In this document: positions 7,143 through 26,598 of the stretch, piece after piece
How the letters are laid out: the number at the start of each line of letters is the position of its first letter
Position numbering within the stretch: position 1 is the stretch's first letter
IMG/VR virus record: IMGVR_UViG_3300037961_001370
Coordinates: 1 to 29,340 of that record
Reading direction: 5' to 3' (one strand)
Source: a virus
Length of the DNA stretch: 29,340 bases
Notes under the pieces: generated by a model
Database searches by the model: none
Told to the model about the DNA's origin: nothing
What the model saw: only the letters and a program-made list of their open reading frames with translations
Translations under genes and position numbers: made by a program

Positions 7143-7613
7143 TTAGATTGATGTATTTGTTATGAACACCGGTGATGTTGATGTTTGTTCATATTCATTA
7201 TATGTGATTGATGGGTTGTTCTTTGCACTAAAATTCAAAATCCCGTTCCAAATTACTTTCACAATTGAACCATCCGTCGGGTCAAGATTCGTTGTTGATG
7301 TTTGTTGCCAGATTTTGACATTATAAAATCCGTATGGATATTCTTTAGTTCCCATATATATCGAACCAGTCAAAGGCGCTTCACCGGATGAATTTTTGAT
7401 TGTATAATAAATTTCCCAATATCGAGATTGATAAGTTTTTGTCAAGGTTGTTGGAAGAAAATATTTGGTTTTGTTTGTTTCTTGACTTGTGTATCCAATC
7501 AAAGGTTTGAACGTGTCAACATTGGCCGCCGTGTGGTCAAGGTTGCTAAACAAATCCAATCGGATATAATTGGGTGACGGTGAAGTTGTCGAATCTCTAA
7601 TCGCTTGAATCAT
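7143..7613 (-). CDS. Hypothetical virion-like protein
   Basis: A 156-aa protein beginning MIQAIRDSTTSPSPNYIRLDLF. It is Thr/Ser/Tyr-rich and strand-like throughout (SRYWEIYYTIKNSS, GFYNVKIWQQTS), with no membrane segment. I chose the ATG at 7613 because the open frame back to 7682 runs through the upstream 55-aa gene; with this start the overlap is 17 nt. It abuts the portal gene with no spacer. Position between the major-tail-like protein and the portal suggests a structural, head-tail-joining or accessory role. I do not recognise the family. Confidence 0.6.
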   Translation of the reverse strand: MIQAIRDSTTSPSPNYIRLDLFSNLDHTAANVDTFKPLIGYTSQETNKTKYFLPTTLTKTYQSRYWEIYYTIKNSSGEAPLTGSIYMGTKEYPYGFYNVKIWQQTSTTNLDPTDGSIVKVIWNGILNFSAKNNPSITYNEYEQTSTSPVFITNTSI

Positions 7614-7764
7614 GTTTGATTTTCTTTTTCTTCTTTTGTGTTTCAAAATACTTGTCACCAAATCGTGATTGAATATGTTCAAGTTGGTGTTGATTCATCT
7701 CGCCAAGTGTCAACCGATAATGTGAAACTTTTTCGTCAAGATACTCTTTTTTTACTATAATCAT
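7597..7764 (-). CDS. Small charged protein behind a late promoter (55 aa)
   Basis: A 55-aa protein, MIIVKKEYLDEKVSHYRLTL at the N-terminus, then a Gln/His-rich helix (NQHQLEHIQSRF) and a Lys-rich tail (TQKKKKKIKHDSS). The frame is open back to 7944, but that extension would pass through a terminator and promoter and overlap the tail-protein gene. The ATG at 7764 lies 12 nt after the promoter element at 7777-7803, which fixes the start. Short 'KKEYLDE...' proteins at this place in head operons are common in Bacteroidota phages. Its role is unknown. Confidence 0.65.
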   Translation of the reverse strand: MIIVKKEYLDEKVSHYRLTLGEMNQHQLEHIQSRFGDKYFETQKKKKKIKHDSSD

Positions 7765-7776
7765 AGTGTGTCTTTT

Positions 7777-7803
7777 TTTATAAATATAAATATCTGCTTT
7801 TTG
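7777..7803 (-). promoter_or_regulatory. Late promoter-like element, copy 4
   Basis: On the minus strand this reads CAAAA, ten variable bases, then TATATTTATAAA, identical in layout to the elements at 11187-11213 and 19968-19994. It starts a few bases after the U-tract of the terminator at 7809-7839 and ends 12 nt before the ATG at 7764. TATATTTA resembles the Bacteroidota -7 element TAnnTTTG with the last G replaced by A. Inferred to drive the portal/connector/lysis transcript. Confidence 0.7.
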
Positions 7804-7808
7804 TTTAC

Positions 7809-7839
7809 AAAAAAAAAGACGACCGAAGTCGCCCTTTTT
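7809..7839 (-). terminator. Intrinsic terminator after the major-tail-like gene
   Basis: On the minus strand a six-base-pair stem (GGCGAC / GUCGUC, one G-U pair) closes a UUCG tetraloop and is followed by an uninterrupted run of U residues. The arms are at 7828-7833 and 7818-7823. It ends the transcript that carries the capsid and major-tail-like genes. Confidence 0.85.
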
Positions 7840-7864
7840 CAAAACAGAATAGAAAAACAATTCT

Positions 7865-8458
7865 TTACGTCGGTGTTGTTCCGACTGTGATTGTAACGTT
7901 TCCGGGTGTTGAAATCGCATCAAATGGATACTTGTCAGTTCCAACCCCTGCCGTAGCTTTTACAATATAATTTTCAGTTTCTTGGGATGTGAAAGTCAAA
8001 GTGAATCCCGAAAGATCCCCTTTCGCCGTTCCCGTGCTCATTGCTCCCGCAGTCACAGAACATCCAAATCGTGTTCCTAATAAGAACACATTGTCATTCG
8101 CATCAAGAACCCAAACTTGACAACGACCTTTTAAAATGTTGTCTAAATGTGGAATGTCTTCTTTGACAATTTTTTGTAATGTAACGTCCAAAACTTGTTC
8201 GTAATATGTTGAACCCGTCGCGTCATCACTTGTAAAATTTGCATTAAACGTCGCCGTGTTTGGTCTAAGGTCATATTGGTATAATGTGACCGCACTGTCA
8301 ATGTCGGTAATCTCATTTGACGTGATTGTCAATTTCGATAATAAGTCCGCATCGTAATTCAATAAGAAAATCTTATTGATTCCGCCGATGACGTCTTTAC
8401 ATCCAACGGCTCTGCCCTCACTAACATCACACCCAAATTTATAAAATTTATTAGCCAT
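7865..8458 (-). CDS. Putative major tail (tube) protein
   Basis: A 197-aa protein with the segment LGTRFGCSVTAGAMSTGTAKGDLSGFTLTFTSQE (about 126-160). This is a pattern typical of siphophage major tail proteins: a strand, a glycine-rich turn, then GDxSGxxLTFTxxE. The region before it (YQYDLRPNTATFNANFTSDDATGS, DVTLQKI) fits tube strands. If correct, it polymerises into the tail tube around the tape measure. Unusually, it lies directly after the capsid gene and not in the tail module. The abundant-protein interpretation is supported by its own strong terminator. A head decoration protein is the main alternative. Confidence 0.6.
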   Translation of the reverse strand: MANKFYKFGCDVSEGRAVGCKDVIGGINKIFLLNYDADLLSKLTITSNEITDIDSAVTLYQYDLRPNTATFNANFTSDDATGSTYYEQVLDVTLQKIVKEDIPHLDNILKGRCQVWVLDANDNVFLLGTRFGCSVTAGAMSTGTAKGDLSGFTLTFTSQETENYIVKATAGVGTDKYPFDAISTPGNVTITVGTTPT

Positions 8459-8480
8459 TTTTTTTCTTTTAAAAGGTTAT

Positions 8481-8506
8481 AAAAGGGGGGTGTGTTTCAA
8501 CCCCCA
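8481..8506 (-). terminator. Hairpin between capsid and major-tail-like genes
   Basis: The minus strand forms a GC-rich stem (GGGGGTTG / CACCCCCC, one mismatch) with a five-base loop followed by only four U residues and then mixed sequence. It lies in the 58-nt gap after the capsid gene. The weak U-tract suggests a partial terminator or an mRNA 3'-end stabiliser that would raise capsid transcript levels over downstream genes. Confidence 0.6.
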
Positions 8507-8516
8507 TTTAATAATA

Positions 8517-9452
8517 TTATCCAGCGTAAAGAGTGATATCAGAACCGAACGCGTAGTTCACACCCGCGTTGAATCTCATAATCAATCTCACGTTGTCCGA
8601 CCCGTCAAGTTCTGCCATGTCTAAAACACGAACTTCACTTGAAGAACCATCCGTTCCAAAGAACATATTTGACGTTCTTCCTGCAATCATTGTGTCGTCT
8701 GCCATTCCCGGAGCGTGCGCAAGTCTCACGCCATTATAAGACAAATTCCAACCCTCTCTCATGTTGTATTCGTTAAAATAACCAAGAGCCGCTTGAGCTT
8801 GAATATAAAATCTCCATGCAGATGTTGGAATCCAGATTTTTAAATCTTCTTTTCCATAGACTGCCGTTGGAATAGTTGAAACAACGTCGCCCAATTTTTC
8901 CACGATATTTGCAGCAGTTAAAGCCGCAGCGCCTGCAACGTCATTCACGTCACCATCAGCCAAAGCCAATTTTCTGAATCCGTCAAATTGTCCGTTGGTG
9001 TCGGTTGTTCCGTCCCATATTGAAGTTTGTATTTCTGCTGAAACTTTTTCAGCTGTTTGCGCGATTAAATAATCAACGAATGGTGTTGGTAATGTTCCAT
9101 TTAAACTATTAGACATATTTTGTCCCTCCCAAGTTTTCAAAAATTCTTGTTTACAAACTTGTGTGTTAACCTCTAATTTTTCTGGTTCTAAAACTCTTTC
9201 AGCATAAGTCACTGTTCCAGAATCAGTGAAATCACAAGTCGCGTCAGCGATTAAGCCGTCCGCAGACCCTCCAACTGTGATTTTTCTAAGGTTAGCTTTA
9301 AATTCAACATTATTCAATAATGTTAATTCATTGTTTGCCATTGTTGGGTTTGAAAGTAGAGCCGCCGAAATATATCCTTGAGCCGCTTCACCTGCATAAT
9401 TTGAAGTGACCGACTGTGTCAAGTCATACTTCTTTGATAGATTCTTTTTCAT
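8517..9452 (-). CDS. Major capsid protein
   Basis: A 311-aa protein in the expected place, directly after protease and scaffold genes. Its sequence has features of HK97-fold capsid proteins of Bacteroidota phages: a helical N-arm (KKYDLTQSVTSNYAGEAAQGYISAALL), a middle segment PEKLEVNTQVCKQEFLKTWEG, IWDGTTDTNGQFDGFRKLALAD, a strand-rich P-domain (DLKIWIPTSAWRFYIQAQAALGYF) and a C-terminal stretch RVLDMAELDGSDNVRLIMRFNAGVNYAFGSDI. No separate cleavage site is obvious. Spacing to the scaffold is 18 nt. The call rests on gene order plus recognisable segments; I could not run a structure search. Confidence 0.85.
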   Translation of the reverse strand: MKKNLSKKYDLTQSVTSNYAGEAAQGYISAALLSNPTMANNELTLLNNVEFKANLRKITVGGSADGLIADATCDFTDSGTVTYAERVLEPEKLEVNTQVCKQEFLKTWEGQNMSNSLNGTLPTPFVDYLIAQTAEKVSAEIQTSIWDGTTDTNGQFDGFRKLALADGDVNDVAGAAALTAANIVEKLGDVVSTIPTAVYGKEDLKIWIPTSAWRFYIQAQAALGYFNEYNMREGWNLSYNGVRLAHAPGMADDTMIAGRTSNMFFGTDGSSSEVRVLDMAELDGSDNVRLIMRFNAGVNYAFGSDITLYAG

Positions 9453-9470
9453 TTTTTTAAATTAAATTTA

Positions 9471-10160
9471 TTAGTTCATTTTATTTATATAATAAGCAAC
9501 TCTTTCTTTTGTTGAAAGCTTTGACAAATTAACTTCAACCGGTTTCGTTGATGGTGAAACCTTTAAACCCTCCGAAGATGGTTGTCCTTCAAACTCTTGG
9601 AGTTTGTTTTCTAAATCGTCGATTCTTGTTGTTAAATCACTGATAACATCCTTTGAAAGTTCAACTTCCGTTGTTTCAACTTCTTCTTCAACTTTCGTTG
9701 CTAAGTGGTCAACCACAATTTTCGCAACTTCTTTTGAAATTTCTTCCGTCACTTCGTCTGGCGTCGCGTCATTTATTTTGACCGCCACTTCTTCAATTAC
9801 CGGATCTGCCGTGACCGCTTCAACAACTTCTTCTTTTTCAACAACTTCTTCCATTTCTTCTTTTTTCAATTCTTCTTCAATCACTTCTTCTTCAATTACT
9901 TCTTCACTTTCTCCAGCAACTTTGCTTTCTGAATCGATTCTTATTTTTGAACCATCTTGCAAAGTGTAGATTCCTTCGGCTAAGGATTCGACCGCGCCTT
10001 CATCGTTTATCACATAAACTTCCGCACCTATGTCAAACGCTTCCGCGTCAGTAGCGATGACCCTTGCATCGTCAAGAATTGCTTCCGCATACATCTCAAT
10101 TTTGTATGTCTTTTTTTTAGAGAACTTTAAAAGCTCTTTGATTTTTTTGATTGAACTCAT
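9471..10160 (-). CDS. Capsid scaffolding protein
   Basis: A 229-aa, strongly acidic protein. Residues about 20-75 form a small strand-rich domain (VYVINDEGAVESLAEGIYTLQDGSKIRID). About 80-180 is a Glu/Val-rich low-complexity, coiled-coil-like stretch. Residues about 168-190 form a leucine-heptad helix (ISDLTTRIDDLENKLQEFEG), and the end is a basic, conserved-looking tail (LSTKERVAYYINKMN). Acidic coiled-coil proteins between the head protease and the major capsid gene are characteristic scaffolds, degraded by the protease during maturation. A promoter-like element lies 11 nt upstream of its ATG. The N-terminal domain resembles one seen in several Bacteroidota phage head proteins. Confidence 0.75.
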   Translation of the reverse strand: MSSIKKIKELLKFSKKKTYKIEMYAEAILDDARVIATDAEAFDIGAEVYVINDEGAVESLAEGIYTLQDGSKIRIDSESKVAGESEEVIEEEVIEEELKKEEMEEVVEKEEVVEAVTADPVIEEVAVKINDATPDEVTEEISKEVAKIVVDHLATKVEEEVETTEVELSKDVISDLTTRIDDLENKLQEFEGQPSSEGLKVSPSTKPVEVNLSKLSTKERVAYYINKMN

Positions 10161-10171
10161 TTGATTTCTTT

Positions 10172-10198
10172 TTTATATATATTAATAATTGATTTTTG
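10172..10198 (-). promoter_or_regulatory. Late promoter-like element, copy 3 (variant)
   Basis: Minus strand: CAAAA, ten bases, then AATATATATAAA. The second block differs from the TATATTTATAAA consensus at two of twelve positions, and the total 27-bp layout and spacing are the same as in the other three copies. It ends 11 nt before the scaffold ATG. No terminator precedes it, so it would be an internal promoter boosting scaffold and capsid expression. Confidence 0.5.
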
Positions 10199-10218
10199 TT
10201 CCCTTTCAAATTGAAAAC

Positions 10219-11175
10219 TTATCTTTTAACACTTCTATTTTTGATAGCGGCACATACCTTTTCGGCTGTTTCCCTGTCTCCATATTCTTTCATTTGGTCA
10301 CGAATACATTGTTCCCATGGATACGACGCCAAATCATTACTTCGGTATTTTTCCGATTTGTATTTGATTTTTTTCTTTCGTTTCTTTAAAAGTTCCGCAT
10401 GAGATTTACAACCCATGTAATATGTTTGACCATCGATTTCATGTGAATGACTTCCAGAACAATCAAAAAACAATTCCCCGTATAATTCAGCCTTTTCAAT
10501 ATCCAAATATACCGGTGTCCCATCAAGGGTCATGTCTGGTTTTAATTCAGCGTTTAAAAGTATATCTTTGATTTCTTCCATTACTTCTTTTTGTTCACAT
10601 TCAACGCATTCTTCTGCTAGGTCAAGAATGTCTTCTTTCTGCATCTCGATAACCTTGTCCACAAAATATCCCTCTATGCTGTAACCACGAAGTTTGTTTT
10701 CTTTCACATCATTCCAAACATCGTCATTGTATATCTTCATTTTTACAAACCAACTTCCGATTGGAACGTCATTGAATCCATATAAATTTGATTTGTCGTT
10801 CTTGTCTTCTTTTATCCAAGTTTCAATGACTGAAACACCATCAACATTTTTTTCGTGTTCAACTGTAGCGTTGTTATTTTTTAAACCATTCATAAAAAGT
10901 TCTTGAGCCTTTTCAATAGTTTCTTTTGAGAAAAAAACAAGATATTCTTCGTTCTTTTCTTGGTCAAATCTTGGAATCTCTTTTTCGGGGATCAAGGCTA
11001 CACCAATCAATGTCCTTTTGTCTTCGTCTATTTTTGCAAGTGACACAAATTTGTCTTTTGACATTGCAACCCACCCACGCTCAATGGCTGGATTTGACAC
11101 CAGTGAAATCGCTTGTATTCCGAAAATTTCTTCGGTTTCGTCAATTATTAATTCAACAATTTTTGGTTTCTTCAT
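10219..11175 (-). CDS. XkdF-like prohead serine protease with extra C-terminal domain
   Basis: A 318-aa protein. Residues about 1-175 match the XkdF-type prohead protease pattern (PF14550-like): IFGIQAISLVSNPAIERGW, LIGVALIPEKEIPR, TVEHEKNVDGVSVIETWI with probable catalytic His107, PIGSWFVKMKIYNDDVW, and LRGYSIEGYF with probable nucleophile Ser166. It should cleave scaffold and capsid during maturation. A second region (about 205-318) carries CSGSHSHEIDGQTYYMGCKSH and YPWEQCIRDQMKEYGDRETAEKVCAAIK, a module often attached to Bacteroidota phage head proteins and possibly metal binding. It starts 11 nt after a late promoter element and opens the head operon. Confidence 0.8.
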   Translation of the reverse strand: MKKPKIVELIIDETEEIFGIQAISLVSNPAIERGWVAMSKDKFVSLAKIDEDKRTLIGVALIPEKEIPRFDQEKNEEYLVFFSKETIEKAQELFMNGLKNNNATVEHEKNVDGVSVIETWIKEDKNDKSNLYGFNDVPIGSWFVKMKIYNDDVWNDVKENKLRGYSIEGYFVDKVIEMQKEDILDLAEECVECEQKEVMEEIKDILLNAELKPDMTLDGTPVYLDIEKAELYGELFFDCSGSHSHEIDGQTYYMGCKSHAELLKKRKKKIKYKSEKYRSNDLASYPWEQCIRDQMKEYGDRETAEKVCAAIKNRSVKR

Positions 11176-11186
11176 TATACTTATTT

Positions 11187-11213
11187 TTTATAAATATAAT
11201 ATCAATGATTTTG
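11187..11213 (-). promoter_or_regulatory. Late promoter-like element, copy 2
   Basis: Minus strand: CAAAA, ten bases (TCATTGATAT), then TATATTTATAAA. It lies 13 nt downstream of the tape-measure terminator's U-tract and 11 nt upstream of the protease ATG. Inferred to start the head operon. Confidence 0.7.
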
Positions 11214-11226
11214 TTTATTTTATGAC

Positions 11227-11257
11227 AAAAAAAAGGGGGATGGTTAGGCACCCCCCC
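11227..11257 (-). terminator. Intrinsic terminator closing the tail operon
   Basis: On the minus strand an eight-base-pair stem (GGGGGGTG / CATCCCCC with one G-U pair) with a six-base loop is followed by eight U residues. It lies about 110 nt after the tape-measure stop and immediately before the head-operon promoter. Confidence 0.85.
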
Positions 11258-11367
11258 TTCTTAAAAAAAACTTATTCATACATGAGTATGGAAATTGAAA
11301 ACCTTTAATTAAAAAGATATGTAAATATAATTAAAATAATTGACATCACAAAAAATTCACCAAAAAT

Positions 11368-12957
11368 TTACAATGTTGTTTGAAGGTCAAGTTCTTCTTG
11401 TAGCGCTTGACTATTTGAAATGTCTGTTTCCACAACATAAGCTTGAACGGGCTGTTGTGTTGTTTCTGTCAAATTTTCTGTCAATTGATTGGGGATTAAA
11501 TTATCAACATTCATCGGCCCTGTTCCTGTTGGGCTTGGAGTGACACCGCCACTGCTGTCGTCAACCGAATCTTCTTCGGGGTCGGTTTTCAATATATTAC
11601 GAACTGCCGCGAATCCTGTCGCCGCCGTTATCCCAGCTTGAACCAAATTCCAAGGTGCTGGAACGTTTGCCAGTGCGTTTGTAATTCCTTGGTAAGTATT
11701 GTATAAAGCTTGAGCCACTGCAAACCCTTTCGCCGCTGTTGAATTTTCTTCCATTAAACCACTAAGGGCACCAAGTCCATCCGAAATCATTTTGACTTTC
11801 GAATCTTGAATTGCCTTTTCCCTGTCTTCTTCTTCTTTTGCGTATTTTTTATTAATTTCGTCAACCTGTTTCCCGTATTGTTCGGTGATTGTTGTGGTGT
11901 CTTGTCCGTATTTATTAGCCAACTCCAAAAGTTTTTGATACTTCTTTTCGGCTTGAAAAAGTTCTTCATCAATTGCGGTTTGGTTCGCCACCCTCAAGAC
12001 TTCCAAATCGTCTTCACGTTGTTTGTCGGCCTTTGCTTTGTCCGCGTCTTCTTTTTCTTTCGCTGCCTTTCTGTTTGCCTCACCTTCTTTTATAATGGAA
12101 TTTATTTTGTTGTTTAATTCGATTTGTTTGGTTGTGGATTCTTGACGAACATTGGCCAAATTGATTTCAAGTTGTGTCAATTTTTCAAGGTCTTCTTCCA
12201 TGTTTTCGCTTGTTTCCATTTGTTCCATCTGGATTCGAACGGCTTCTTCCGCGTTCGCTAATCTTTTTGCGACCAAATTGGTTTCAATTTCAAAAGCCTT
12301 TTGAGCCGCCGCAAGTCTTTCATCTTCACTTTTCGTCACGTCTTCCGAAATCATTTTCAATTGCTCAATCTCTGCCCGTCTTTGTGCTGTTTCAACATTG
12401 ATTTGACGTTCCGCCTCCCGTAATGCGATTGCACTTTTTGTCAATTCACCCATCAATTTGACGTCTTCTTTTATTTCTTCACCAATCCCCTTGAAACTAT
12501 CTCCCATCTGGTCAATACCTTCTTTAAATCCCCCCTTTTTAAATATCTTCAAAAGACCTTCACCGAAATTTGAAACCCTGTCTTTTATGACTGTGAATGT
12601 CGCACCAAGTTTCGCCATTGCTATTTCCAATTTTTCCGCACCCCTTTGCGTTGATGTGAAGTATGTCACAAGTGAACCGATGGCAACAACAAAGGCACCG
12701 ATTCCCGTTGATATTAAACCAACCTTTATTGATGTAAACATTAATTTCGCGGACTTGAGTGTCGCTCCAAACGCCTTTTTTACAGAACCCAAACTTGTTC
12801 CCAAGATATTGACTTCACCCCATGCGGCTTCCACACTCTCGCCCAGTGACTGGGCTTCTTCGCCGGCATCTTTAGTGGCCTTTTTTAATTTGTCAATCTC
12901 TTTTGTTCCTTTGTCAGCTCCTGTGACTTTGACATTTACTGTGATTTCTTGCGCCAT
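11368..12957 (-). CDS. Tape measure protein
   Basis: A 529-aa protein with the classic layout. It has a short N-terminal domain (ITVNVKVTGADKGTKEIDKLKKATKDAG), a hydrophobic segment at about 78-105 (VGLISTGIGAFVVAIGSLVTYF), a long Glu/Lys/Ala-rich coiled coil from about 160 to 390, and a second hydrophobic, Ala/Gly-rich segment at about 410-455 (TAAKGFAVAQALYNTYQGITNAL, GITAATGFAAVRNIL). Tape measures set tail length and may enter the envelope during DNA delivery. The length implies a fairly short tail by the usual length rule. It begins inside the end of a 61-aa gene (22-nt overlap) and is followed by a strong terminator. Confidence 0.85.
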   Translation of the reverse strand: MAQEITVNVKVTGADKGTKEIDKLKKATKDAGEEAQSLGESVEAAWGEVNILGTSLGSVKKAFGATLKSAKLMFTSIKVGLISTGIGAFVVAIGSLVTYFTSTQRGAEKLEIAMAKLGATFTVIKDRVSNFGEGLLKIFKKGGFKEGIDQMGDSFKGIGEEIKEDVKLMGELTKSAIALREAERQINVETAQRRAEIEQLKMISEDVTKSEDERLAAAQKAFEIETNLVAKRLANAEEAVRIQMEQMETSENMEEDLEKLTQLEINLANVRQESTTKQIELNNKINSIIKEGEANRKAAKEKEDADKAKADKQREDDLEVLRVANQTAIDEELFQAEKKYQKLLELANKYGQDTTTITEQYGKQVDEINKKYAKEEEDREKAIQDSKVKMISDGLGALSGLMEENSTAAKGFAVAQALYNTYQGITNALANVPAPWNLVQAGITAATGFAAVRNILKTDPEEDSVDDSSGGVTPSPTGTGPMNVDNLIPNQLTENLTETTQQPVQAYVVETDISNSQALQEELDLQTTL

Positions 12958-13121
12958 AATCTAAGTATTTCTTTAAACATTCTTTTAAAACTTGTGTGTT
13001 TTTCATTCCGACCATAGAGAAAGCAGTATTCTTCACGGCCGTATAATTCTATTTTGTTAATTGTTTTTAATTGTATCAACATTAATTTTGTTGACAATTT
13101 AATGTGTTGTTTTAATTCCAT
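12936..13121 (-). CDS. Small basic protein between tail genes (61 aa)
   Basis: A 61-aa, Lys/Arg-rich protein without Cys clusters or membrane helices. It overlaps the upstream 1160-aa tail gene by 10 nt and the tape-measure start by 22 nt, filling exactly the space between them, which is the main support for its being real. Small genes at this position can encode tail assembly factors, but nothing in the sequence shows that. I do not recognise it. Confidence 0.5.
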   Translation of the reverse strand: MELKQHIKLSTKLMLIQLKTINKIELYGREEYCFLYGRNEKHTSFKRMFKEILRLWRKKSQ

Positions 13122-16100
13122 AATAAATAACTTGCGTTTTCAAATAAGATGTTGTCAGCATTCTGAAAAATAGCGTAATCACTGGAAACAGGAATTGTCA
13201 ACGCGTGAATTTCTTGGACTGACAAATCACATGTCAATTGCCACATTCTCTTTGTGTCCGTTTGGTCATCGTCAAGACCAAATTCCAACAAACCATTGTT
13301 TGAAACGATGTTCAAAGTGCATGTTGTTGGGAACACTCCTTCATGAAGATTAAATTCATTTGTTCCCCCCGCTGTTCCTTGTTGAACCACTGTCCCCGAC
13401 TTGTTCACAAACGAAGTGTAATATGCAAACGAATCCGTTGTTCCAACCACATAAGTTGAACTTGTTCCGCCAACCACTGTCACAATCCCACTGACACGAA
13501 TCAACATGTTTGTGTTGTTTGGAATAATTAATGATTTTGTGTTCTGCGACCCCTCTGGATATGCGTATCCCCGTGTTGTTCCTTCGGTGAATCCTGTCAA
13601 TATCATTCGGTGCATCTCGCCCTGTATCTTTGGCCCTTTCTGTTGTCTTGTTTTATATTTAATAATAATGTCATCCTTTTGTGGTCTTAAAATCGAACTA
13701 CTAAATCGAGACGTGTCCGAACCAATTCTCAAAGGTTGTTTTCCGATTAGCCCGTTAAATATTGTCTTCGTTTGACCTAATGACAAAATTGATTCCAAAG
13801 CAAAAACATCTTTCAGTTTCAAAGGGAAACTTCCAACGTTTGCCAAACAAGGATATAATCCCGACGCCGCGTTCAATGTGAAGAACGTCAATGATTGTCC
13901 GCCAATACATTCACAACAACTTGTCGGAGCCATCACACCAAGAAACGGACTTGAAACCGAAGGGGTGCAATTTGGGTCACTATCTGGACACCAATAATAA
14001 AAAAGTCCATAATATAAATTAAAACCACTCGAATCCGTTCCGACAACATAGTCGCAATCTTCACATGTGACAGTGTCGGTGATTTTTAAAAGGGTGACTT
14101 TTGTTGAAACGTCTTGACCAACTTGATAATTGTGAATGTTGATAATTCGCCAATATGAATCTTTGATGAAAATTTCGTCATTGAAATTAAAATTGTGAAT
14201 GTCAACTTCGTCAAGTGTCAAATGACATTCCATGATCCGCGAATCTGGTGAATAAATTCCGTCAAGATAACTTTTCCAATACAAGCCATATAATGAATTA
14301 TCGAACCAAGACCCCGTGTCGTTTCCGTAATTGAAGACACTCAAGTCACCAACCAACGGGGGGTTTGCGTTCCAATACAATGATTTATTGGCTTGTGTCA
14401 ATGTATATTCATTACTCGATGGTGTTATGTCATAAGGTGTGCACAATGGATATGTCGTGAAGTTATAAACCGCAATGACAGAATTTGATGATGGTTGGTG
14501 GTGCATATTGTAACCCCCCGACAATGCGTTCCCATCACTTCCAAGGACGGCCGTTGGTGTTCCACAATAATAAAACAATTTCGGCTTTGTGGCTTCAATT
14601 GGATTTTCCGCACCTCCTTCAACAAGTTTATATGTAAATTCATAATGAACCGCCATATTCAACAATTGTGTTGTAAGTTGATTTTCTTCGTTCTGTTGGA
14701 CTTTTCCATTAATATAAGGGGCGAATATCGATTTGTTCTTCAATTCACCTTGAGCGAACTCATTTGTGTCCTGTGTTCGTTTATAATGTCCATATACATT
14801 CGATGACGGAAGTTTCTCTTTTATTGTTTTGTTTGCAAGGTCAACATCTTCTTGGTCTGTCAAATGAATTGTGTGTTTTTGAATTGATGTGGTGTCCTTT
14901 ACAATAATCTCTTTTGACGTGTCTAATTTGTTTGACCACGACTTGATTGTTCCACCTTCTAAATAATCATTGTATGGCTCTATTATTAAATTAGTTGGAT
15001 TGTCTTTGTCCGGTATTATAACCAAATTAAAACGTTGTATTATGTCGGTCAAGAAATCTTTTTGAAGAATGGATTCATCAACACATGCGGGAACATTAAT
15101 TGTTTGATTGTATGCTCCTTCATTCCACGCCGGCCAAATCACTTGGACTTGACTGTATAGTTCGGCACATGTGAACGGGTCATCACTCCCAAAATTAACA
15201 GAATTAGTGGCAGACGTTGGCTTCATGTTTTCAATCGTCACTTTTATTCGTGCACTTTGACCAACAGGAATTGAAGTCAAGTCAAATTGATATGTCAAAG
15301 GACTGTTGAAATCATTATTCGGGTCGGATGTTGTTAGGTCAATATATATCGGTTCACCATATGTCACATTTGGGTCTTCGGCCACTGCGTCCACATCCCA
15401 TCTTTGAAGCCACGCTTTGAACCTAATTGGTTGATATGTGTTTTGTGGTGTTGTGACATCATTCGGTGTCGCGGTGTCCATGTTTTCAAGTTCCAATTTG
15501 TGACGGACTGTCATCAACATTTGTGTTTGAACATTCCTTGTGAAATAATCATATGTAGCATCCCATGAACCTCCATTATTTAAACAATCAGCGCCGCCCG
15601 TGATGCTCGCTGGAACTCTTGTCACTAATTCAGCCGCGGGAATTTCTTGGTCGTCTGGATAATTACTTGAAGCCCCCCAAGTCAACGCATTTCCAACATT
15701 CATTGAACCCCCTTGTTGTGCTGATGAATCCGTCACCGGAAGACCAGCTTCGGCCAAATGATTCCCCGTTGTCATAAAGATTTTTCCAAAATAGGAACCA
15801 TCAATGAAGGTGGATGTATATGTGAACCCCGCGTTTGTGATTAACTTGTTCAACAAATACTTGATTTGTATTGCTGGACGTAGTTGGTTTATTGGAACCA
15901 TAAATTCCGGGGGGTCATTGATGGGGTCTGGAAATATCGCCGTGTTGTTAATGTCCGACGATGTCATGTTCAAATAATATGGTGCATTTTGGTTGTAATA
16001 AAAATTAGGTTTTGTCAAACTCATGGGATACATAAGTTTTTGAACACCCGCGGATACGTCTTGAAGCGGATCTCCCGAACTATTTTCGAAAGAATCTGAC

Positions 16101-16594
16101 GCCCCGTTCCACGAATCTGTGATGTTTCCTTGTGTGTAAACATGGTCAAGTTCTGTTGAATAACTTCCATTTTCATTTTTAAAAACGTCTTTCAACTTTT
16201 TGTTTCCCACCATTGTGAAAAGGTCGGCCGTGTTTGACATCAAAACAACTTCATAAAGCTGTGCTTTTTGATATACCGCTTTTAATTGAATTATCCCTTC
16301 GAATTGTGGTGTCGCCCCAACAAACAACGTCGCGTCAAACTTCTTTCGGGCTGTGAAAACTAAAGTATCTAAATTGACATTGAACCAATTTTGAAAGAAC
16401 TTGTTGTTGTTATCCGTGAAAGGTAATTTGAACGTTTGTGAATAGCTGGCTTTTCTTGTTTCCGGTTCCTTTATATCACTGAATTGAAAGTTCAAAGAAA
16501 CGGACGGGTTTTCTTGTAAGTCCAATTCATAACTTGATTCTGTTGTTGACGATGTTGTCGCCTTTCTGTATGCAACTAAACGAACTTGTTTCAT
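13112..16594 (-). CDS. Large tail protein (probable baseplate or tail-hub component)
   Basis: An 1160-aa protein, the largest in the window. The N-terminus (LDLQENPSVSLNFQFSDIKEPETRKASYSQTFKLPFT, about 25-60) resembles a domain in large tail proteins of Bacteroidota phages that lie beside the tape measure. The middle is strand-rich with many aromatic and Asn/Asp turns; VIIPDKDNPTNLIIEPYNDYLEGG near 530-555 is hub-like. A Cys-rich stretch lies at about 845-895 (TCEDCDY, CPDSDPNC, SCCEC). The C-terminal third looks like a carbohydrate-binding or trimeric tip module. It overlaps the previous stop in TAATG form. The tail role is well supported by context; the exact part is inferred. Confidence 0.7.
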   Translation of the reverse strand: MKQVRLVAYRKATTSSTTESSYELDLQENPSVSLNFQFSDIKEPETRKASYSQTFKLPFTDNNNKFFQNWFNVNLDTLVFTARKKFDATLFVGATPQFEGIIQLKAVYQKAQLYEVVLMSNTADLFTMVGNKKLKDVFKNENGSYSTELDHVYTQGNITDSWNGASDSFENSSGDPLQDVSAGVQKLMYPMSLTKPNFYYNQNAPYYLNMTSSDINNTAIFPDPINDPPEFMVPINQLRPAIQIKYLLNKLITNAGFTYTSTFIDGSYFGKIFMTTGNHLAEAGLPVTDSSAQQGGSMNVGNALTWGASSNYPDDQEIPAAELVTRVPASITGGADCLNNGGSWDATYDYFTRNVQTQMLMTVRHKLELENMDTATPNDVTTPQNTYQPIRFKAWLQRWDVDAVAEDPNVTYGEPIYIDLTTSDPNNDFNSPLTYQFDLTSIPVGQSARIKVTIENMKPTSATNSVNFGSDDPFTCAELYSQVQVIWPAWNEGAYNQTINVPACVDESILQKDFLTDIIQRFNLVIIPDKDNPTNLIIEPYNDYLEGGTIKSWSNKLDTSKEIIVKDTTSIQKHTIHLTDQEDVDLANKTIKEKLPSSNVYGHYKRTQDTNEFAQGELKNKSIFAPYINGKVQQNEENQLTTQLLNMAVHYEFTYKLVEGGAENPIEATKPKLFYYCGTPTAVLGSDGNALSGGYNMHHQPSSNSVIAVYNFTTYPLCTPYDITPSSNEYTLTQANKSLYWNANPPLVGDLSVFNYGNDTGSWFDNSLYGLYWKSYLDGIYSPDSRIMECHLTLDEVDIHNFNFNDEIFIKDSYWRIINIHNYQVGQDVSTKVTLLKITDTVTCEDCDYVVGTDSSGFNLYYGLFYYWCPDSDPNCTPSVSSPFLGVMAPTSCCECIGGQSLTFFTLNAASGLYPCLANVGSFPLKLKDVFALESILSLGQTKTIFNGLIGKQPLRIGSDTSRFSSSILRPQKDDIIIKYKTRQQKGPKIQGEMHRMILTGFTEGTTRGYAYPEGSQNTKSLIIPNNTNMLIRVSGIVTVVGGTSSTYVVGTTDSFAYYTSFVNKSGTVVQQGTAGGTNEFNLHEGVFPTTCTLNIVSNNGLLEFGLDDDQTDTKRMWQLTCDLSVQEIHALTIPVSSDYAIFQNADNILFENASYLLWN

Positions 16595-18117
16595 TAATTG
16601 TTTGTATTTATTGGGTTGCTGTGTTCAATCTCAAAAGTGTATTGAATTTGAAGTTTGTTTTTTGCACTTGTTTTCTTTTCAAAGGACTTGTTTGTTATAA
16701 CGACCCTTTGTGAAATCTTAAACGTTCCCTTTTGAATCATCATGACCGCTGTTGAATTGAACATTGTTTCTAAAAATTCGGCTTCTTCTTGTTCGATGTA
16801 TTGTGTTTGAATAGTTGACTTCAAAGTCGTGCTTGTTGTCAATGTTTTTTTTCCTCCGCCCCATGTTTCAAAAGAATACGTTGAACCGGTGTCCAAACTA
16901 CTTGAGCCAAGCAATGATGAATAACCACTTCTTTCGGTTGTTATCGTGTCAACCTTTCCCCCGCGAAAATCGTAATAATCCCACGCCCCCAATTCATTGA
17001 CCCATCCAAGACGGACAATCTCTTGGTCTTTACAATTGTAGTCGGTGTCAAAGTCACGAACAAAATAATAGTATTTTGAACGGATTTGTGAAGTCCCGTT
17101 TTTATCATTACACATATAAATACGATAATAAGCGTAATCCCGGACAACTGTTCCGGATGGTTTCCCGTCAAAAGTAGCTAAGGCCGCGTCATCCTTGTGG
17201 GCTTGTCCTGTGTATGTTTCAAAATTCGCAGTTCCACAACCTGCATAAAGTAGATATTCTCCATCACCACCTGCAGAAGCTGGAGCCCTTCCACCAAATG
17301 TTGTCGTGTTCGGGAATGTATATGTATGAATCAATCCACCATCTGAATTATAATACTGCAATCCTAAAAAATCACCATCCGAACCCCAACCACTTTTATT
17401 TTGAAAACCTATTGTGTGAAAGTCGGACAACCTTGAAACATAATTAATATATCCTTGTAACAACCCACCACCACCGGGTTGTTGATTTAAATTTCTGTAA
17501 TCATAAATGAATGGAGCGTTTGACAATAATAATTTAGTGTTTGCGGACGTTGTATAGTCACCAAGAGGATTCGTGTTCGAAGCGTTCGCATAAGTCATTA
17601 ATCCAAACGTTGCATTTGTAAAATACATTGTAATTTGAACCACATCCGCCGCTCCTGTTTGTTCAACGGGTGACGCCGTTGCTGTTGACGCATATTCGAT
17701 ATTTGCTTTTAGAATAATTGTTTGGACTGTATTGGTGTTTTTACCAAATATCTTGTCGGTCACACCGGTGTTTCTTCCGAGCTTGTGAACTTCATAAATT
17801 GACTGATTTGAATCAGTGAATGTGGATTCAATTTGTGTGTTCACGATTCCTTTTATATCAAAAATAGCAACTTGATTTGTAGTTGTCGAAGCGTTGTTTG
17901 TTCTTTGTTTTAATGTCGCCAATAAGTTCGCGTCCGAAACAGAATCTTTGTAAATCCTCAATATATATTTGAGCCTAAACACCGCCGACAAATTGTCTGT
18001 TCGATTAACAACAACCGGAAGAATTGGCCAATAGTTTGTTGGAACTAATTCATCATAAGTTGATGTCCCCGTATAGGTTGCTGTTTCTGTTGGAATTTGT
18101 GTTATCTGTGTTGCCAT
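16594..18117 (-). CDS. Structural tail protein, 507 aa
   Basis: A 507-aa strand-rich protein. Its N-terminal half is Thr/Asn-rich (NLSAVFRLKYILRIYKDSV, LGRNTGVTDKIFGKNTNTVQTI). The C-terminal half has a distinctive run RLGWVNELGAWDYYDFRGGKVDTITTERSGY followed by EEAEFLETMFNSTAVMMIQKG and a final KNKLQIQYTFEIEHS. I have seen this kind of sequence in marine phage virion proteins, but I cannot name a domain. It lies between the gp10-like gene and the 1160-aa tail protein with TAATG and zero-gap junctions, so it is very likely co-translated. It may be a distal tail or baseplate subunit. Confidence 0.6.
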   Translation of the reverse strand: MATQITQIPTETATYTGTSTYDELVPTNYWPILPVVVNRTDNLSAVFRLKYILRIYKDSVSDANLLATLKQRTNNASTTTNQVAIFDIKGIVNTQIESTFTDSNQSIYEVHKLGRNTGVTDKIFGKNTNTVQTIILKANIEYASTATASPVEQTGAADVVQITMYFTNATFGLMTYANASNTNPLGDYTTSANTKLLLSNAPFIYDYRNLNQQPGGGGLLQGYINYVSRLSDFHTIGFQNKSGWGSDGDFLGLQYYNSDGGLIHTYTFPNTTTFGGRAPASAGGDGEYLLYAGCGTANFETYTGQAHKDDAALATFDGKPSGTVVRDYAYYRIYMCNDKNGTSQIRSKYYYFVRDFDTDYNCKDQEIVRLGWVNELGAWDYYDFRGGKVDTITTERSGYSSLLGSSSLDTGSTYSFETWGGGKKTLTTSTTLKSTIQTQYIEQEEAEFLETMFNSTAVMMIQKGTFKISQRVVITNKSFEKKTSAKNKLQIQYTFEIEHSNPINTNN

Positions 18118-18696
18118 TTATACAAAGTATTTTTCTTTAGTTAAATTTTCTTTTAAGTCTTGAGCGTATGCACCTTCTAAATTCATATACATTCGCCCCA
18201 AGTTTTGACCAAGTGGTTTTGAAAAGAATCCAGTTCCTGTCAAACCCTGTCTATGTATTGAAATTGCCATCGCGAATTTTATTGAGCTTCGTGAAATGAA
18301 TCGTCCCTTTGCGTCTCTTGTTCCGTCAATTCCCTTTTGAATCATCCATTTGTCAAGGACACTTGGGGGAATCATTCGTTTTGTTGTTTTGAATCTTGGT
18401 TGATTCTTAAATCCAAATATCATATTCGCAAACGCATTGTTCAATGGTTTTTTCATGTTCAATGGTTGTGCGTTTTTTCCTGTGGGTTTCACTCCCGTTC
18501 CCTTGACACCAGTATCCACAAAACCCCCGTATTCTGGTATTTTAAATTGAACAACAGGAGATTTCTCAAAACTTCCAATCACTTGGGCTGTTATGGATCT
18601 AGCAAGATTTTTAGAGCCCTTTAGATTCCTTTTGGCGTCTCGGACTTGTTTCCTTGCAAATCCCTGTAAAACTTGAATACTATTTTCAAAAGCCAT
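18118..18696 (-). CDS. HK97 gp10-like tail completion/neck protein
   Basis: A 192-aa basic protein. The pattern VVQFKIPEYGGFVDTGVKGTGVKP near 48-71, followed by IHRQGLTGTGFFSKPLG near 145-162, resembles HK97 gp10-type proteins, which join the head connector to the tail. The start at 18696 leaves a 3-nt gap from the upstream stop, and the stop abuts the next gene with no gap. Position after the tail-terminator-like gene fits a neck-module pair. Sequence similarity in this family is weak, so the call leans on context. Confidence 0.6.
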   Translation of the reverse strand: MAFENSIQVLQGFARKQVRDAKRNLKGSKNLARSITAQVIGSFEKSPVVQFKIPEYGGFVDTGVKGTGVKPTGKNAQPLNMKKPLNNAFANMIFGFKNQPRFKTTKRMIPPSVLDKWMIQKGIDGTRDAKGRFISRSSIKFAMAISIHRQGLTGTGFFSKPLGQNLGRMYMNLEGAYAQDLKENLTKEKYFV

Positions 18697-18699
18697 ATA

Positions 18700-19197
18700 C
18701 TAAGAATTATTAATTTGTGGAACACTGCAAAGGTCATTTTCATTTTGACAAACTACATTGAAAGTCCCACCCCATCCCGTCAACATATTCGCGAACCTAC
18801 TTGTGAAAGGTTCCAAGGTCAATGGAAGTTCCAATTCCGTTCGTTGGTCTGCCCACGATGACGATTGTGTCGCCTGTCTAAAATTTGAAATCACGTCTTT
18901 CATCAACAACAATGTTTCTGTGTAGGCGTCATTTAATCCCGTGTAGTCTTCTTGAATCAATTCCGCGATAATAACATCAAACGAATATGTGATTGTTTGT
19001 GCGTCCACTGTCACGGGGTTTGGTGTGATATACATTAACGGGAACTTATCCGCGTCCAGTTTTTCAATGTCAACATCATTCAAACTTCCAGAATTAAAAG
19101 ATTGAATCACTTTGTTGTTTGTCGCTATGGATTCAAACGTGTCAACCATTTGTTTGTATGTGATATTTTTATATGTCTTGTTATCGTTTTGTGCCAT
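18700..19197 (-). CDS. Tail-terminator-like protein
   Basis: A 165-aa protein beginning MAQNDNKTYKNITYKQMVDTF. The order LDADKFPLMYITPNPVTVD, then TITYSFDVIIAELIQED, then DAYTETLLLMKDVISNFRQ resembles the alpha/beta fold of gpU-like tail terminators, where an early strand pair is followed by a long helix. Terminators cap the growing tail tube and join it to the neck. It overlaps the end of the frameshifted chaperone frame by 17 nt and precedes the gp10-like gene. The family assignment is by pattern and place only. Confidence 0.5.
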   Translation of the reverse strand: MAQNDNKTYKNITYKQMVDTFESIATNNKVIQSFNSGSLNDVDIEKLDADKFPLMYITPNPVTVDAQTITYSFDVIIAELIQEDYTGLNDAYTETLLLMKDVISNFRQATQSSSWADQRTELELPLTLEPFTSRFANMLTGWGGTFNVVCQNENDLCSVPQINNS

Positions 19198-19965
19198 GTT
19201 CTTTTTCCAATATAAATTTGTCCTGTTTATAAGACAAAAATGTTAATGCTTGATATAACTTTATTTCGGTTACATCGTCAATTTTTAATACATCCCCCGA
19301 AGCCAATTCATAAAGAATCGCATACCATCCCCATTTTTTTGTGTATCTCTTTTCTGTTGTCACCCTTCTTTCGTATGGTGTCCCCTCATTTTGAACTACT
19401 TCAGTTTCTCCAAATAATTGGCTGAATCGGTCAAAAGTGGTTCGCCTAAATGAAAAAAAAAATTAAGAACCCCCAACGCGTATCCCATCGGAAACCCTTT
19501 CATCAACTCTTGTTTTTCTGGTGTCGGTTCGTAGTTCTCTATTTTATATCTTCCGAACCTGTCTTTTTTTTCTGTTTGTTTCCTATATAAAACACTGATA
19601 ATTTTATGTAGGTTTTCAATGGTGTTTTCATTGTATGATTCTAAGTCAATAAATTCACCCGTTGTCATATCACTCATATTTGGAATTACTCCATAGTTCT
19701 CACCATTAAATTTGATGTTTTGAACCATCTCAACACCCGTCGGGTCTTCACTTATCCATCCGTTTAATATTTTACCAATCTTGTCCAAATCACCAAACGC
19801 AAAGTTCTTCAAATCCTTCATTGAAACATTACAAAACAATGATACCATTTTCATCGTTTTTTGTTCTTCTTTTAAATTACTTTCAAGAATATCAATCATT
19901 TTTTGATATTGTTCAATTGTTATGTCGTTCCAATTATCTGGAACTTTTAATTTAATTTGTTTCAT
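19181..19965 (-). CDS. Tail assembly chaperone -1 frameshift fusion (G-T type)
   Basis: The zero-frame protein (19396-19965) shares its first 170 residues with a 261-aa product made if ribosomes slip back one base in the T10 run at 19462-19453. In the -1 frame a TAA lies directly before the run (19465-19463). The frame is then open for over 90 codons to a stop at 19181, and includes KRYTKKWGWYAILYELASGDVLKIDDVTEIKLYQALTFL. This second part has no ATG; only a GTG at 19363 would allow separate translation. Position just before the tail genes and the two-frame layout match lambda G/GT-type chaperones that load the tape measure. Slippage could also be transcriptional. Confidence 0.6.
19396..19965 (-). 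CDS. Tail assembly chaperone, zero-frame product (G type)
   Basis: A 189-aa mostly helical, acidic protein: LKVPDNWNDITIEQYQKMIDILE at the N-terminus, SLFCNVSMKDLKNFAFGDLDKI near 45-65, and a C-terminus of GYALGVLNFFFHLGEPLLTDSANYLEKLK. The N-terminal 'w.dIt..qy' helix pattern is common in tail assembly chaperones of this phage group. Three Phe codons (168 onward) are encoded by the T10 slip run, and the short zero-frame tail then ends at TAG (19396). It follows a terminator and a late promoter whose TATA-like block ends only 2 nt before the ATG, so a leaderless or near-leaderless mRNA is possible. Confidence 0.7.
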   Translation of the reverse strand: MKQIKLKVPDNWNDITIEQYQKMIDILESNLKEEQKTMKMVSLFCNVSMKDLKNFAFGDLDKIGKILNGWISEDPTGVEMVQNIKFNGENYGVIPNMSDMTTGEFIDLESYNENTIENLHKIISVLYRKQTEKKDRFGRYKIENYEPTPEKQELMKGFPMGYALGVLNFFFHLGEPLLTDSANYLEKLK

Positions 19966-19967
19966 TT

Positions 19968-19994
19968 TTTATAAATATAAAATTATTGATTTTG
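19968..19994 (-). promoter_or_regulatory. Late promoter-like element, copy 1
   Basis: Minus strand: CAAAA, ten bases (TCAATAATTT), then TATATTTATAAA, ending 2 nt before the tail chaperone ATG. It starts about 9 nt after the U-tract of the upstream terminator. Inferred to start the tail operon. Confidence 0.7.
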
Positions 19995-20053: not shown

Positions 20054-20248
20054 TTAGATTCTTGTGATTGAATAACCTTCACCTTTTATTTCCTCAATTA
20101 GTTCACCACTGTAAATGTCATCACTATCGCCCTTTGTATAATAAACGATTTTTGGAAGTTTATCAAAACCTTGTAAATCACCCCACATTTTGCGATTTCT
20201 TCGTGGTTGTTTTATTTTGATTACGTCTTGATATTTTACTATTTTCAT
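20054..20248 (-). CDS. Small hypothetical protein (64 aa)
   Basis: A 64-aa protein: a Lys/Arg-rich N-terminus (VIKIKQPRRNRKMWGDLQGF) and an acidic middle (GDSDDIYSGELIEEIKGEGY), with no Cys cluster or membrane segment. It stands alone between a host-type promoter candidate (20269-20299) and a strong intrinsic terminator, so it may be a single-gene transcript. That arrangement suggests a separately regulated accessory or host-takeover protein, but no function can be read from the sequence. Confidence 0.6.
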   Translation of the reverse strand: MKIVKYQDVIKIKQPRRNRKMWGDLQGFDKLPKIVYYTKGDSDDIYSGELIEEIKGEGYSITRI

Positions 20249-20268
20249 TATTTCTATTTGTTAAAATA

Positions 20269-20299
20269 CAAATATAAAGAAAAATTCCCATATAAACAA
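20269..20299 (-). promoter_or_regulatory. Host-type (TAnnTTTG) promoter candidate
   Basis: Minus strand: TATATTTG at 20276-20269 matches the Bacteroidota -7 consensus TAnnTTTG. A TTG at 20299-20297 lies 20 nt upstream, where the -33 TTTG element is expected. It is 20 nt upstream of the 64-aa gene ATG, in a 55-nt intergenic gap. Confidence 0.5.
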
Positions 20300-21815: not shown

Positions 21816-22991
21816 TTATACCGATTTTTCGTTCTTTAATATCTCACTTAATAAAGCCATCATTACATTGACTGTCATTGAGTTTCCCGCCTGTTTATAT
21901 ATTTGTGAATCACTGACACCAGCGTCCACACAATTTTGATGAAAACTATCCGGAAACCCTTGAAGCCTTAAACATTCAAGCGGTGTCAACCTTCTGATTT
22001 TTCTTTGTTTTATTATTGGTGTTGATGACGTTGTCAAACAAGGTGACATTCTGTTCTTTCTTATTCGGATTCCTTGGTCTGTTCTAACGTCTGCAATCCA
22101 TTCAATTAAATCACTACTTCCAGACCCCCCAACTTTCAAACAACTCATTATGTCTTTGACCACATTGTGAAATTTGGCTCGGAACCCGTTCCCCTTTTTT
22201 TTATTTCTTTCGTTGTATTCTTCTAATTTTTTTATTCTTTGAGGTGTCAAATAATACTTTTCTTCAACCTTTATAAAATTATTACTATTTTGGATTTTGT
22301 TACAACCCGCTGTAATACAAGACGCGATTTCTTTTTCTTCACCCAGTATTTTAAATTTATTAAATCTTTGGTGTCTTTGTAAAAAATCATAACTAGCTTT
22401 TTTTACATTATATTTGCTATTGACATTGTCTTGTAGTAAATCTTCTATTTTCAAATTCAATTCGACAGATTCTGGCCATTCAAATTCATGTGATTCACGA
22501 AACCCAACAATGAACAATCGTTCTCGATTCTGTGGGATTCCGTAATGTTTTGTATTTAAAACTTTGTGATATATAGTATAATTTAGACTTTCCAAGGAAT
22601 CCATTATCACTCGAAAGGTGTTCCCCTTGTCGTGACCCATTAAACCCTTTACATTCTCTAAAACAAAATACTTCGGACGTTTTAAATCTATGTATTGAAA
22701 CAGGTCAAAGAACAATGTTCCCCGTGTGTCTTCAAATCCTTTTCGTTTCCCCGCTACTGAAAACGCTTGACACGGAAACCCCGCAACATATAGGTCACAA
22801 TAAGGTGTGTTTTTGTGGTCTCTTTGTGTTATATCGTCAAACCAAGTTTCCGTTGTGTGGTTTGCTAGAAAACTTTGTTTCGCATACTTGTTAATGTCAC
22901 AAGCAAAGACGGACTTGTGTTTGATTCCAAGTCCAATCAATGCTTGTTCGGGGGCACCTATTCCGGAAAAGTCTGTTCCAATTGTTATCAT
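21816..22991 (-). CDS. C5 cytosine-specific DNA methyltransferase
   Basis: A complete 391-aa C5-methyltransferase. Motif I is GTDFSGIGAPEQAL (5-18). Motif IV is GFPCQAFSVAGKRKGFEDTRG with catalytic Cys74. Motif VI is ENVKGL (112-117), motif VIII QNRERLFIVGF (about 154-164), then a target-recognition region. Motif IX is RRLTPLECLRLQGFP and motif X is QAGNSMTVNV near the end. It transfers methyl from S-adenosylmethionine to cytosine C5, and probably protects phage DNA from host restriction. No cognate restriction enzyme is next to it. It overlaps the ParB-like gene by 4 nt (ATGA). Confidence 0.93.
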   Translation of the reverse strand: MITIGTDFSGIGAPEQALIGLGIKHKSVFACDINKYAKQSFLANHTTETWFDDITQRDHKNTPYCDLYVAGFPCQAFSVAGKRKGFEDTRGTLFFDLFQYIDLKRPKYFVLENVKGLMGHDKGNTFRVIMDSLESLNYTIYHKVLNTKHYGIPQNRERLFIVGFRESHEFEWPESVELNLKIEDLLQDNVNSKYNVKKASYDFLQRHQRFNKFKILGEEKEIASCITAGCNKIQNSNNFIKVEEKYYLTPQRIKKLEEYNERNKKKGNGFRAKFHNVVKDIMSCLKVGGSGSSDLIEWIADVRTDQGIRIRKNRMSPCLTTSSTPIIKQRKIRRLTPLECLRLQGFPDSFHQNCVDAGVSDSQIYKQAGNSMTVNVMMALLSEILKNEKSV

Positions 22992-23748: not shown

Positions 23749-23907
23749 TTAGTATGGTGCTTCACTCTTTTGTTTTCTTTTAATCATGTTGAAATTGTCT
23801 TTCAATCCGGACACAACGAATTTTCCATTACAAAAGAAACATCCATTGTCTTTCATTAATGTCATTCGAATACAATGACAACAAAATCTATAAATTTGAT
23901 TTTTCAT
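23749..23907 (-). CDS. Small zinc-finger-like protein (52 aa)
   Basis: A 52-aa protein, beginning MKNQIYRFCCHCIRM. It has two Cys clusters: CCHC at residues 9-12 and CFFC at 23-26, consistent with one zinc site, then a basic C-terminal half (KRKQKSEAPY). The start (ATG at 23907) overlaps the TGA of the upstream gene as ATGA, and its stop lies 8 nt before the HNH ATG at 23741, so it fits the operon exactly. It could be a nucleic-acid or protein adaptor. The family is not recognised. Confidence 0.65.
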   Translation of the reverse strand: MKNQIYRFCCHCIRMTLMKDNGCFFCNGKFVVSGLKDNFNMIKRKQKSEAPY

Positions 23908-24269
23908 ATATCACAACTTTTTTCATAAACCTTTTTTAAATTTTCTAAGGTTCTTTTATTACACGGGCCACAACTTGACCATTTGGCCGGAGTGTTGAAC
24001 ACCGCCTTATATATTCCGTTTAAAATACTTTGATTCTTTCGATTCACCATTGTTGTTTTTTCAACTTCGGGAATCACTGATTCATATATTTCTTTTTCAT
24101 CTTTTGTGAATGGTCTTATGTTTTTAAAGTTGGGAAACATATTGTTCAACTTTTGTTGTCTTTCTTCACATCCACAATCGTCACCAAAGATTGTTTTGAC
24201 CAACTTTGAAAGACCTGTTTTGTCCGTGAACTTTTTTATGTCGTCGCCAAGACCTTTACTTTTTTTCAT
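23904..24269 (-). CDS. Conserved phage protein of KGLGD...CGC type
   Basis: A 121-aa protein starting MKKSKGLGDDIKKFTDKTGLSKLVKTIF, followed by DDCGCEERQQKLNNMFPNF and, near the C-terminus, WSSCGPCNKRTLENLKKVYEKSC. I recognise the KGLGD / TGL / CGC..R...LN..FP pattern as recurrent in Bacteroidota phage genomes close to terminase genes, with no known function. Four or more Cys residues in CGC and CGPC could bind metal. The ATG at 24269 is chosen over the open frame to 24323 because it overlaps a 31-aa membrane ORF stop as ATGA. Confidence 0.7.
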   Translation of the reverse strand: MKKSKGLGDDIKKFTDKTGLSKLVKTIFGDDCGCEERQQKLNNMFPNFKNIRPFTKDEKEIYESVIPEVEKTTMVNRKNQSILNGIYKAVFNTPAKWSSCGPCNKRTLENLKKVYEKSCDI

Positions 24270-26587: not shown

Positions 26588-26598
26588 TTTTTTATATT

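Follow-up and report, generated by a model that had tools for sequence, protein, structure and literature searches.

Four copies of a two-part element, P1 to P4, are found in the 29,340-nucleotide window analysed here, which is an entire IMG/VR phage record, and their sequence and placement indicate that they are very probably the late promoters of the particle genes. In the explanation that we favour, to which a probability of about 80% is assigned, P1–P4 are read by the host core RNA polymerase together with a phage sigma factor resembling the extracytoplasmic function (ECF) class, giving mRNAs with a short leader or none. Nearly all genes of the window lie on the minus strand, and their order runs from an early region (cytosine methylases, a ParB-like protein and the sigma-like protein) through the terminase to the tail, protease, scaffold, capsid and portal-like genes. 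The window derives from a marine bacteriophage whose host appears to be in the Bacteroidota, as suggested by its relationship to the cultured Nonlabens phage P12024S and by the presence of a host-type promoter; a near-identical named phage was not found. At least 596 relatives of the capsid protein are present in IMG/VR, with 80 loci retained, and contigs from approximately 30 relatives (labelled G001 etc.) were retrieved, some of which are fragments without the sigma region, where absence of the sigma gene is uninformative. Genes were called as simple open reading frames (ORFs) by a script, and the genes of relatives were named by BLAST against the window proteins.

All four sites are on the minus strand. 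P1 (19968–19994) precedes the gene of a 189-residue protein, a putative tail chaperone (19396–19965), P2 (11187–11213) precedes the gene of an XkdF-like head maturation protease (10219–11175), and P4 (7777–7803) precedes the gene of a 55-residue protein (7597–7764), downstream of which lies a portal-like gene (4875–7142). These three sites match the motif exactly, and P3 (10172–10198), which precedes a putative scaffold gene (9471–10160), is a variant with two mismatches and the core AATATATATAAA. The distances between the core and the ATG are 2, 11, 11 and 12 nucleotides (nt) for P1 to P4, respectively, so that both the coordinates and the spacing of 2–12 nt given in an earlier note on this DNA are reproduced by the motif search. 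The capsid gene (8517–9452) and the genes further downstream have no site of their own, and we propose that the capsid gene is served from P3 by read-through past the scaffold gene. In close relatives the motif is found before the same four genes: the P2 and P4 sites are conserved, the 2-nt gap of P1 is kept in all of these relatives, and the variant core AATATATATAAA is present at the scaffold gene in every one of them. The 189-residue gene itself contains a T-rich run near its end (19396–19500, minus strand), followed by a short ORF (19181–19363, minus strand), a layout that is common in frameshifted tail chaperone genes.

The element has the form TAAACAAA-N11-TATATTTATAAA-AAA and is always oriented with the gene that it precedes. 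The earlier note described its upstream part as CAAAA; an upstream box is indeed present, but the conserved box is longer, reading (T)AAACAAA or (T)AGACAAA at positions -19 to -12 from the core, where the form with G in place of one A occurs at some P1 sites, including that of the window. At P3 the upstream box is GGAACAA or similar (GGAACAA in the window). Within each group of orthologous sites, the upstream box, the core TATATTTATAAA and the AAA are invariant or nearly so, and the spacer varies. The conservation of the core columns is partly circular, since the sites were chosen by their core, and the upstream box is unaffected by this choice.

Terminator-like hairpins followed by T runs are located just upstream of P1 (20009–20032, z score -5.6), P2 (11229–11262, z score -2.9) and P4 (7811–7840, z score -4.8), all on the minus strand, and no such hairpin directly upstream of P3 was found in the hairpin scan. 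In several relatives, the upstream box instead shares nucleotides with the stop codon of the gene before it. These surroundings bear on the idea that the element acts in the mRNA leader, as a translation enhancer or binding site, and not as a promoter. The near-constant short distance to the start codons would fit such a role, as would the report that A-rich leaders aid initiation in flavobacteria (PMC6847099). However, the two boxes at fixed spacing reach up to 30–40 nt upstream, the spacer between them is unconserved, three of the sites directly follow a terminator, and the element is absent before further late genes, among them the capsid gene, which together make a leader element improbable. 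The few copies, all of them before particle genes, would also suit an operator bound by a repressor or activator of the phage. This is a still more remote prospect: the element is bipartite, non-palindromic, always in the orientation of the gene and at a near-fixed distance from the ATG, and at P1 there is no room between the element and the ATG for another promoter.

The pattern described in the earlier note is genuine and more marked than was stated there. Allowing up to three mismatches to the motif, 8 matches are obtained in the window against 0.94 expected, with at most 4 in any of 100 shuffles. With a position matrix trained without the genome under test or its nearest kin, exactly four sites of 27–42 bits per genome are recovered in the window and in nine close relatives, ten genomes in all, and all sites above 10 bits are intergenic according to the simple gene calls. 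The next-best match in these genomes is below 10 bits, and no reverse-strand match reaches 10 bits in any of them. In the window, the scores are 42.2 (P4), 38.5 (P3), 35.8 (P1) and 32.5 bits (P2), followed by 9.8 bits, and no reverse-strand score reaches 0; the top score in 300 simulated order-3 Markov genomes is 17.1 bits. Recognisable forms of the motif that are altered and score lower are found in the lineages of G006/G008/G012 and G009–G011.

A collection-wide scan of IMG/VR (2.9 million contigs) with the extended 23-base pattern TAAACAAA-N11-TATATTTATAAAAAA leads to three of these genes. For 49 of the 50 sites examined (one further listed locus was left out), the gene directly after the site encodes an orthologue of one of three proteins, namely the XkdF protease, the 55-residue protein and the 189-residue protein, and the remaining site is at the end of a contig. 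Counted from the T, the start codon is at position 43 for the protease and the 55-residue gene and at position 34 for the 189-residue gene in nearly all cases. This exact pattern is biased to the lineage of the window and excludes the P3 variant, and the scan is thus a test of specificity and not of breadth. The DNA of the window is rich in A and T, and loose patterns of 14 bases from other lineages do match widely: those of the lineages of P12024S and G026, scanned across the same collection, gave mostly scattered single matches among the matches listed, which are uninformative. For the window element, chance in AT-rich DNA is nonetheless refuted by where the sites lie and how they are conserved, by the matrix scans and by the simulated genomes, in line with the earlier note, which argued against chance from the identical spacing, and the motif is not as frequent within coding regions as it is before genes. 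The reading of the element as a late promoter is supported by its restriction to positions before late (structural) genes and by its conservation in relatives around a varying spacer.

A comparison with host promoters reveals both likenesses and differences. The housekeeping promoter of Flavobacterium johnsoniae contains TAnnTTTG with a near-invariant final G, the start lies 4–5 nt downstream, and 87% of the leaders are longer than 10 nt (PMC6847099). The late sites and the Bacteroidota housekeeping promoter are both AT-rich and have TAnnTTT in common, whereas the late sites in the lineage of the window have A in place of the final G of this -7 box. TTTG, located at -33 in the Bacteroidota promoter, is present at some late sites only and at differing distances, and the ACAAA box is much nearer to the core than the -33 TTTG. 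On sequence grounds, the late element is not a Bacteroidota housekeeping promoter, because neither a -33 TTTG at a fixed position nor the G of TAnnTTTG is conserved, in agreement with the earlier note. The sites could still be late promoters that are read by a housekeeping or alternative sigma factor of the host, with a phage activator or DNA replication determining when they are used. The similarity of TATATTTA to the host -7 box, along with a TTTG approximately 20 nt upstream of the core at some sites, would be expected in that case. We regard it as unlikely, however, in view of the A that replaces a G near-invariant in F. johnsoniae (PMC6847099), the unconserved TTTG, the presence of CGATATAT or CGTTAATA, which do not resemble the host box, at the same places in other lineages, and the sigma-like gene that these phages carry.

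The favoured reader of P1–P4 is the product of this gene, which occupies 24348–24905 (minus strand), starts with GTG and encodes 185 residues. It is located upstream of the terminase gene, where a switch gene is expected. The protein matches PHROG 1740, annotated as RNA polymerase sigma factor (E-value 4.5e-5), and the sigma70-ECF model TIGR02937 matches all 12 aligned family members (best E-value 5.2e-11; 4.3e-7 for the window copy). When the AlphaFold model of the protein is compared with the PDB, sigma factors account for most of the leading matches. Residues 1–95 resemble sigma2 (5uxx, Z score 8.7, root-mean-square deviation (rmsd) 3.5) and residues 113–185 resemble sigma4 (1rp3, Z score 8.4, rmsd 2.6), and the latter part is also similar to region 4 of sigma-E on -35 DNA (2h27, Z score 8.1). 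The model contains sigma2 and sigma4 only, joined by a loose linker (residues 90–117), as in the ECF layout. In a comparison of the sigma profile with solved structures by sequence only, ECF SigH is matched at an E-value of 1.6. From the profile and the predicted fold, 24348–24905 appears to encode a two-domain ECF-like sigma factor, which makes the phage-specific factor suggested in the earlier note plausible; the note itself does not mention this gene.

Close relatives of the sigma-like protein in IMG/VR number 15. None was found in named phages by tblastn, and none was found in GTDB genomes by a search that used two peptide patterns only. Directly after the sigma gene, a 139-residue protein is encoded (23904–24323, minus strand) that almost all of the complete relatives also encode and that is weakly similar (27%) to a protein of P12024S; it is possibly a partner of the sigma factor. 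A fifth match to the core (25009–25035, minus strand), situated within a gene that overlaps the start of the sigma gene and lying, in relatives, 104 nt ahead of the sigma gene, was considered as a site of autoregulation. It was set aside on account of its score of 9.8 bits, its coding position (Tyr-Ile-Tyr-Lys-Lys-Ile) and a synonymous change, TATATATATAAA, in G001, G004, G005 and G007. Only the core recurs there (25009–25020, encoding Tyr-Ile-Tyr-Lys), and this core-like TATATTTATAAA probably reflects coding constraint.

Sigma-like genes and late motifs also occur together in more distant phages, in altered forms. Relatives with 45–50% capsid identity likewise carry a sigma-like gene upstream of the terminase gene, with clear matches in G021 and G024, matches of 1e-6 to 1e-9 in G026–G028 and weak matches of approximately 1e-4 in G022 and G025; the G022 protein matched no NCBIfam model. 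In P12024S, gp33, which is annotated as Sigma-70 region 2, matches ECF families and was missed by the family profile built here. Different repeated motifs stand just before the ATG of the equivalent genes in these lineages. The motif of P12024S is AAAACAAA-N-CGTTA[AC]TA, and its six forward core matches, which span 166–26800 and are unannotated in the record, all lie exactly 12 nt before an ORF start, compared with none of the three reverse matches near an ORF start. For G026/G028, CAAAA-N-CGATATAT has 12 forward matches and no reverse matches; seven of the forward matches are followed by an ORF start at exactly 12 nt, and the remainder have none within 30 nt. The motifs are CGTTATATA at 12 or 25 nt in G027, TTATATTATT or a similar sequence at 11 nt in G022/G025/G030, and TATATTTATATA in G024/G029. 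The -35-like part (ACAAA or CAAAA) is widely common to the lineages and the -10-like part varies. In the protein alignment, the lineages with a TATATTTA-type box carry an extra stretch in the sigma2 region (NQYHSKTSPFYKKY in the window), which is missing from those with a CG-type box; this association is a correlation across a handful of lineages with common ancestry.

Several observations weigh against assigning P1–P4 to the 185-residue protein. It scores 29.7 bits against TIGR02937, below the curated cut-off of 42.9, and is therefore termed ECF-like and not an ECF member. The confidence of its model is only moderate (predicted local distance difference test 75.6, predicted template modelling score 0.48), and the Foldseek E-values are weak, the best being 0.01. 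The link between sigma factor and promoter is correlative, consisting of joint occurrence and of parallel changes among phages of common ancestry, and another conserved phage protein, such as the 139-residue product, could be needed instead or additionally.

In the favoured explanation, the early genes would be transcribed by the host sigma factor from ordinary host promoters (TTG-N-TAnnTTTG), and the phage sigma factor would be made from the early or middle region ahead of the terminase. We infer that it then joins the host RNA polymerase core and redirects it to P1–P4 for late transcription, with (T)AAACAAA as a -35-like box, an 11-nt spacer, TATATTTATAAA as a -10-like box and the A-tract following it. 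The four sites would drive four units: the tail genes; the protease; the scaffold and capsid; and the 55-residue gene with the portal and later genes. By geometry, transcription would start approximately 4–5 nt after TATATTTA, leaving a leader of approximately 1–2 nt before the AUG at P1 and of approximately 10–11 nt at P2–P4. Counted from the C of CAAAA, the ATG follows after approximately 30–31 nt in P12024S and the G026/G028 lineage and coincides, or nearly so, with the predicted +1; the late mRNAs of these phages would therefore be leaderless.

Other features of the window lie outside this scheme. A host-type promoter, TTG-N-TATATTTG (20269–20299, minus strand), was found by pattern scan before a gene of 64 residues (20054–20248) and stands as a contrast to the late sites. 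This gene, located between the terminase and P1, thus has its own host-type promoter and terminator (20054–20299, minus strand); it was found in none of the relatives examined and therefore resembles an inserted accessory gene. Host-type promoters are also detected in the early region of some relatives, in low counts that are similar on both strands and are not relied on, and a scan for E. coli-type promoters is uninformative here (59 in the window and 43 in shuffles). The early region contains two C-5 cytosine DNA methylase genes (21816–22991 and 25922–26614, both on the minus strand; Pfam DNA_methylase, the second match being weak). No Rfam families or tRNAs were found in the window.

Among known systems, the late promoter of T4 has a single box, TATAAATA, read with the sigma factor gp55. 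Late genes read via a phage-specific sigma factor would be common to both phages, as a proposal in the case of the window, whereas at the window sites a further box is conserved at -19 to -12 and T4 has no -35 box. The boxes of the P12024S lineage, AAAAC and CGTTA, resemble ECF -35 and -10 boxes, for example of the sigma-W type. The predicted sigma factor of the window shares the sigma2–sigma4 layout of ECF (group 4) factors, but it is very divergent, and its presumed -10-like box lacks CG. P12024S and P12024L (Inhavirus) are like the window in that a capsid homologue (29%) is present, the terminase is preceded by a sigma gene, and particle genes follow copies of a repeated bipartite motif. 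They are distant from the window, however, and at each of the six sites their -10-like box, CGTTA[AC]TA, lies 12 nt ahead of the ATG. In phages phiEco32 and 7-11, proven phage sigma factors read few late promoters, with positions that are conserved and a consensus that differs among relatives (GTAAtg-16-aCTA with SaPh711_gp47 in 7-11; tAATGTAtA with gp36 in phiEco32) (PMC8948821). The window phage likewise encodes a sigma-like protein and has few conserved sites before structural genes, whose positions are kept while the consensus is lineage-specific; however, phiEco32 and 7-11 are enterobacterial phages, and their boxes are unrelated to those of the window. In the literature searched, no late transcription system of Bacteroidota phages and no phage ECF sigma factors of this kind are described. 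The logic is thus known, and what appears to be new is the phylum (as far as found), the boxes, the ECF-like two-domain sigma factor and the near-fixed distance from promoter to ATG.

The broader picture, which we hold tentatively and with slightly less than even confidence, is of a widespread family of small Bacteroidota phages with co-diverging pairs of ECF-like sigma factors and late promoters, in at least five dialects at equivalent genes. In this family the switch between CG-type and TATATTTA-type -10 boxes would track the extra sigma2 stretch, and the start codon would be locked to the promoter, so that many late mRNAs would have no leader or almost none, in contrast to the leaders that are usual in the phylum. 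In the lineage of the window, one small sigma factor and four promoters would form a compact and testable circuit, and the promoters and sigma factor may serve as a separate expression tool for flavobacteria. The naturally diverged pairs may be used to learn how ECF-like sigma factors choose their -10 box. Additionally, the fixed spacing between promoter and ATG would make leaderless translation in the Bacteroidota directly testable.

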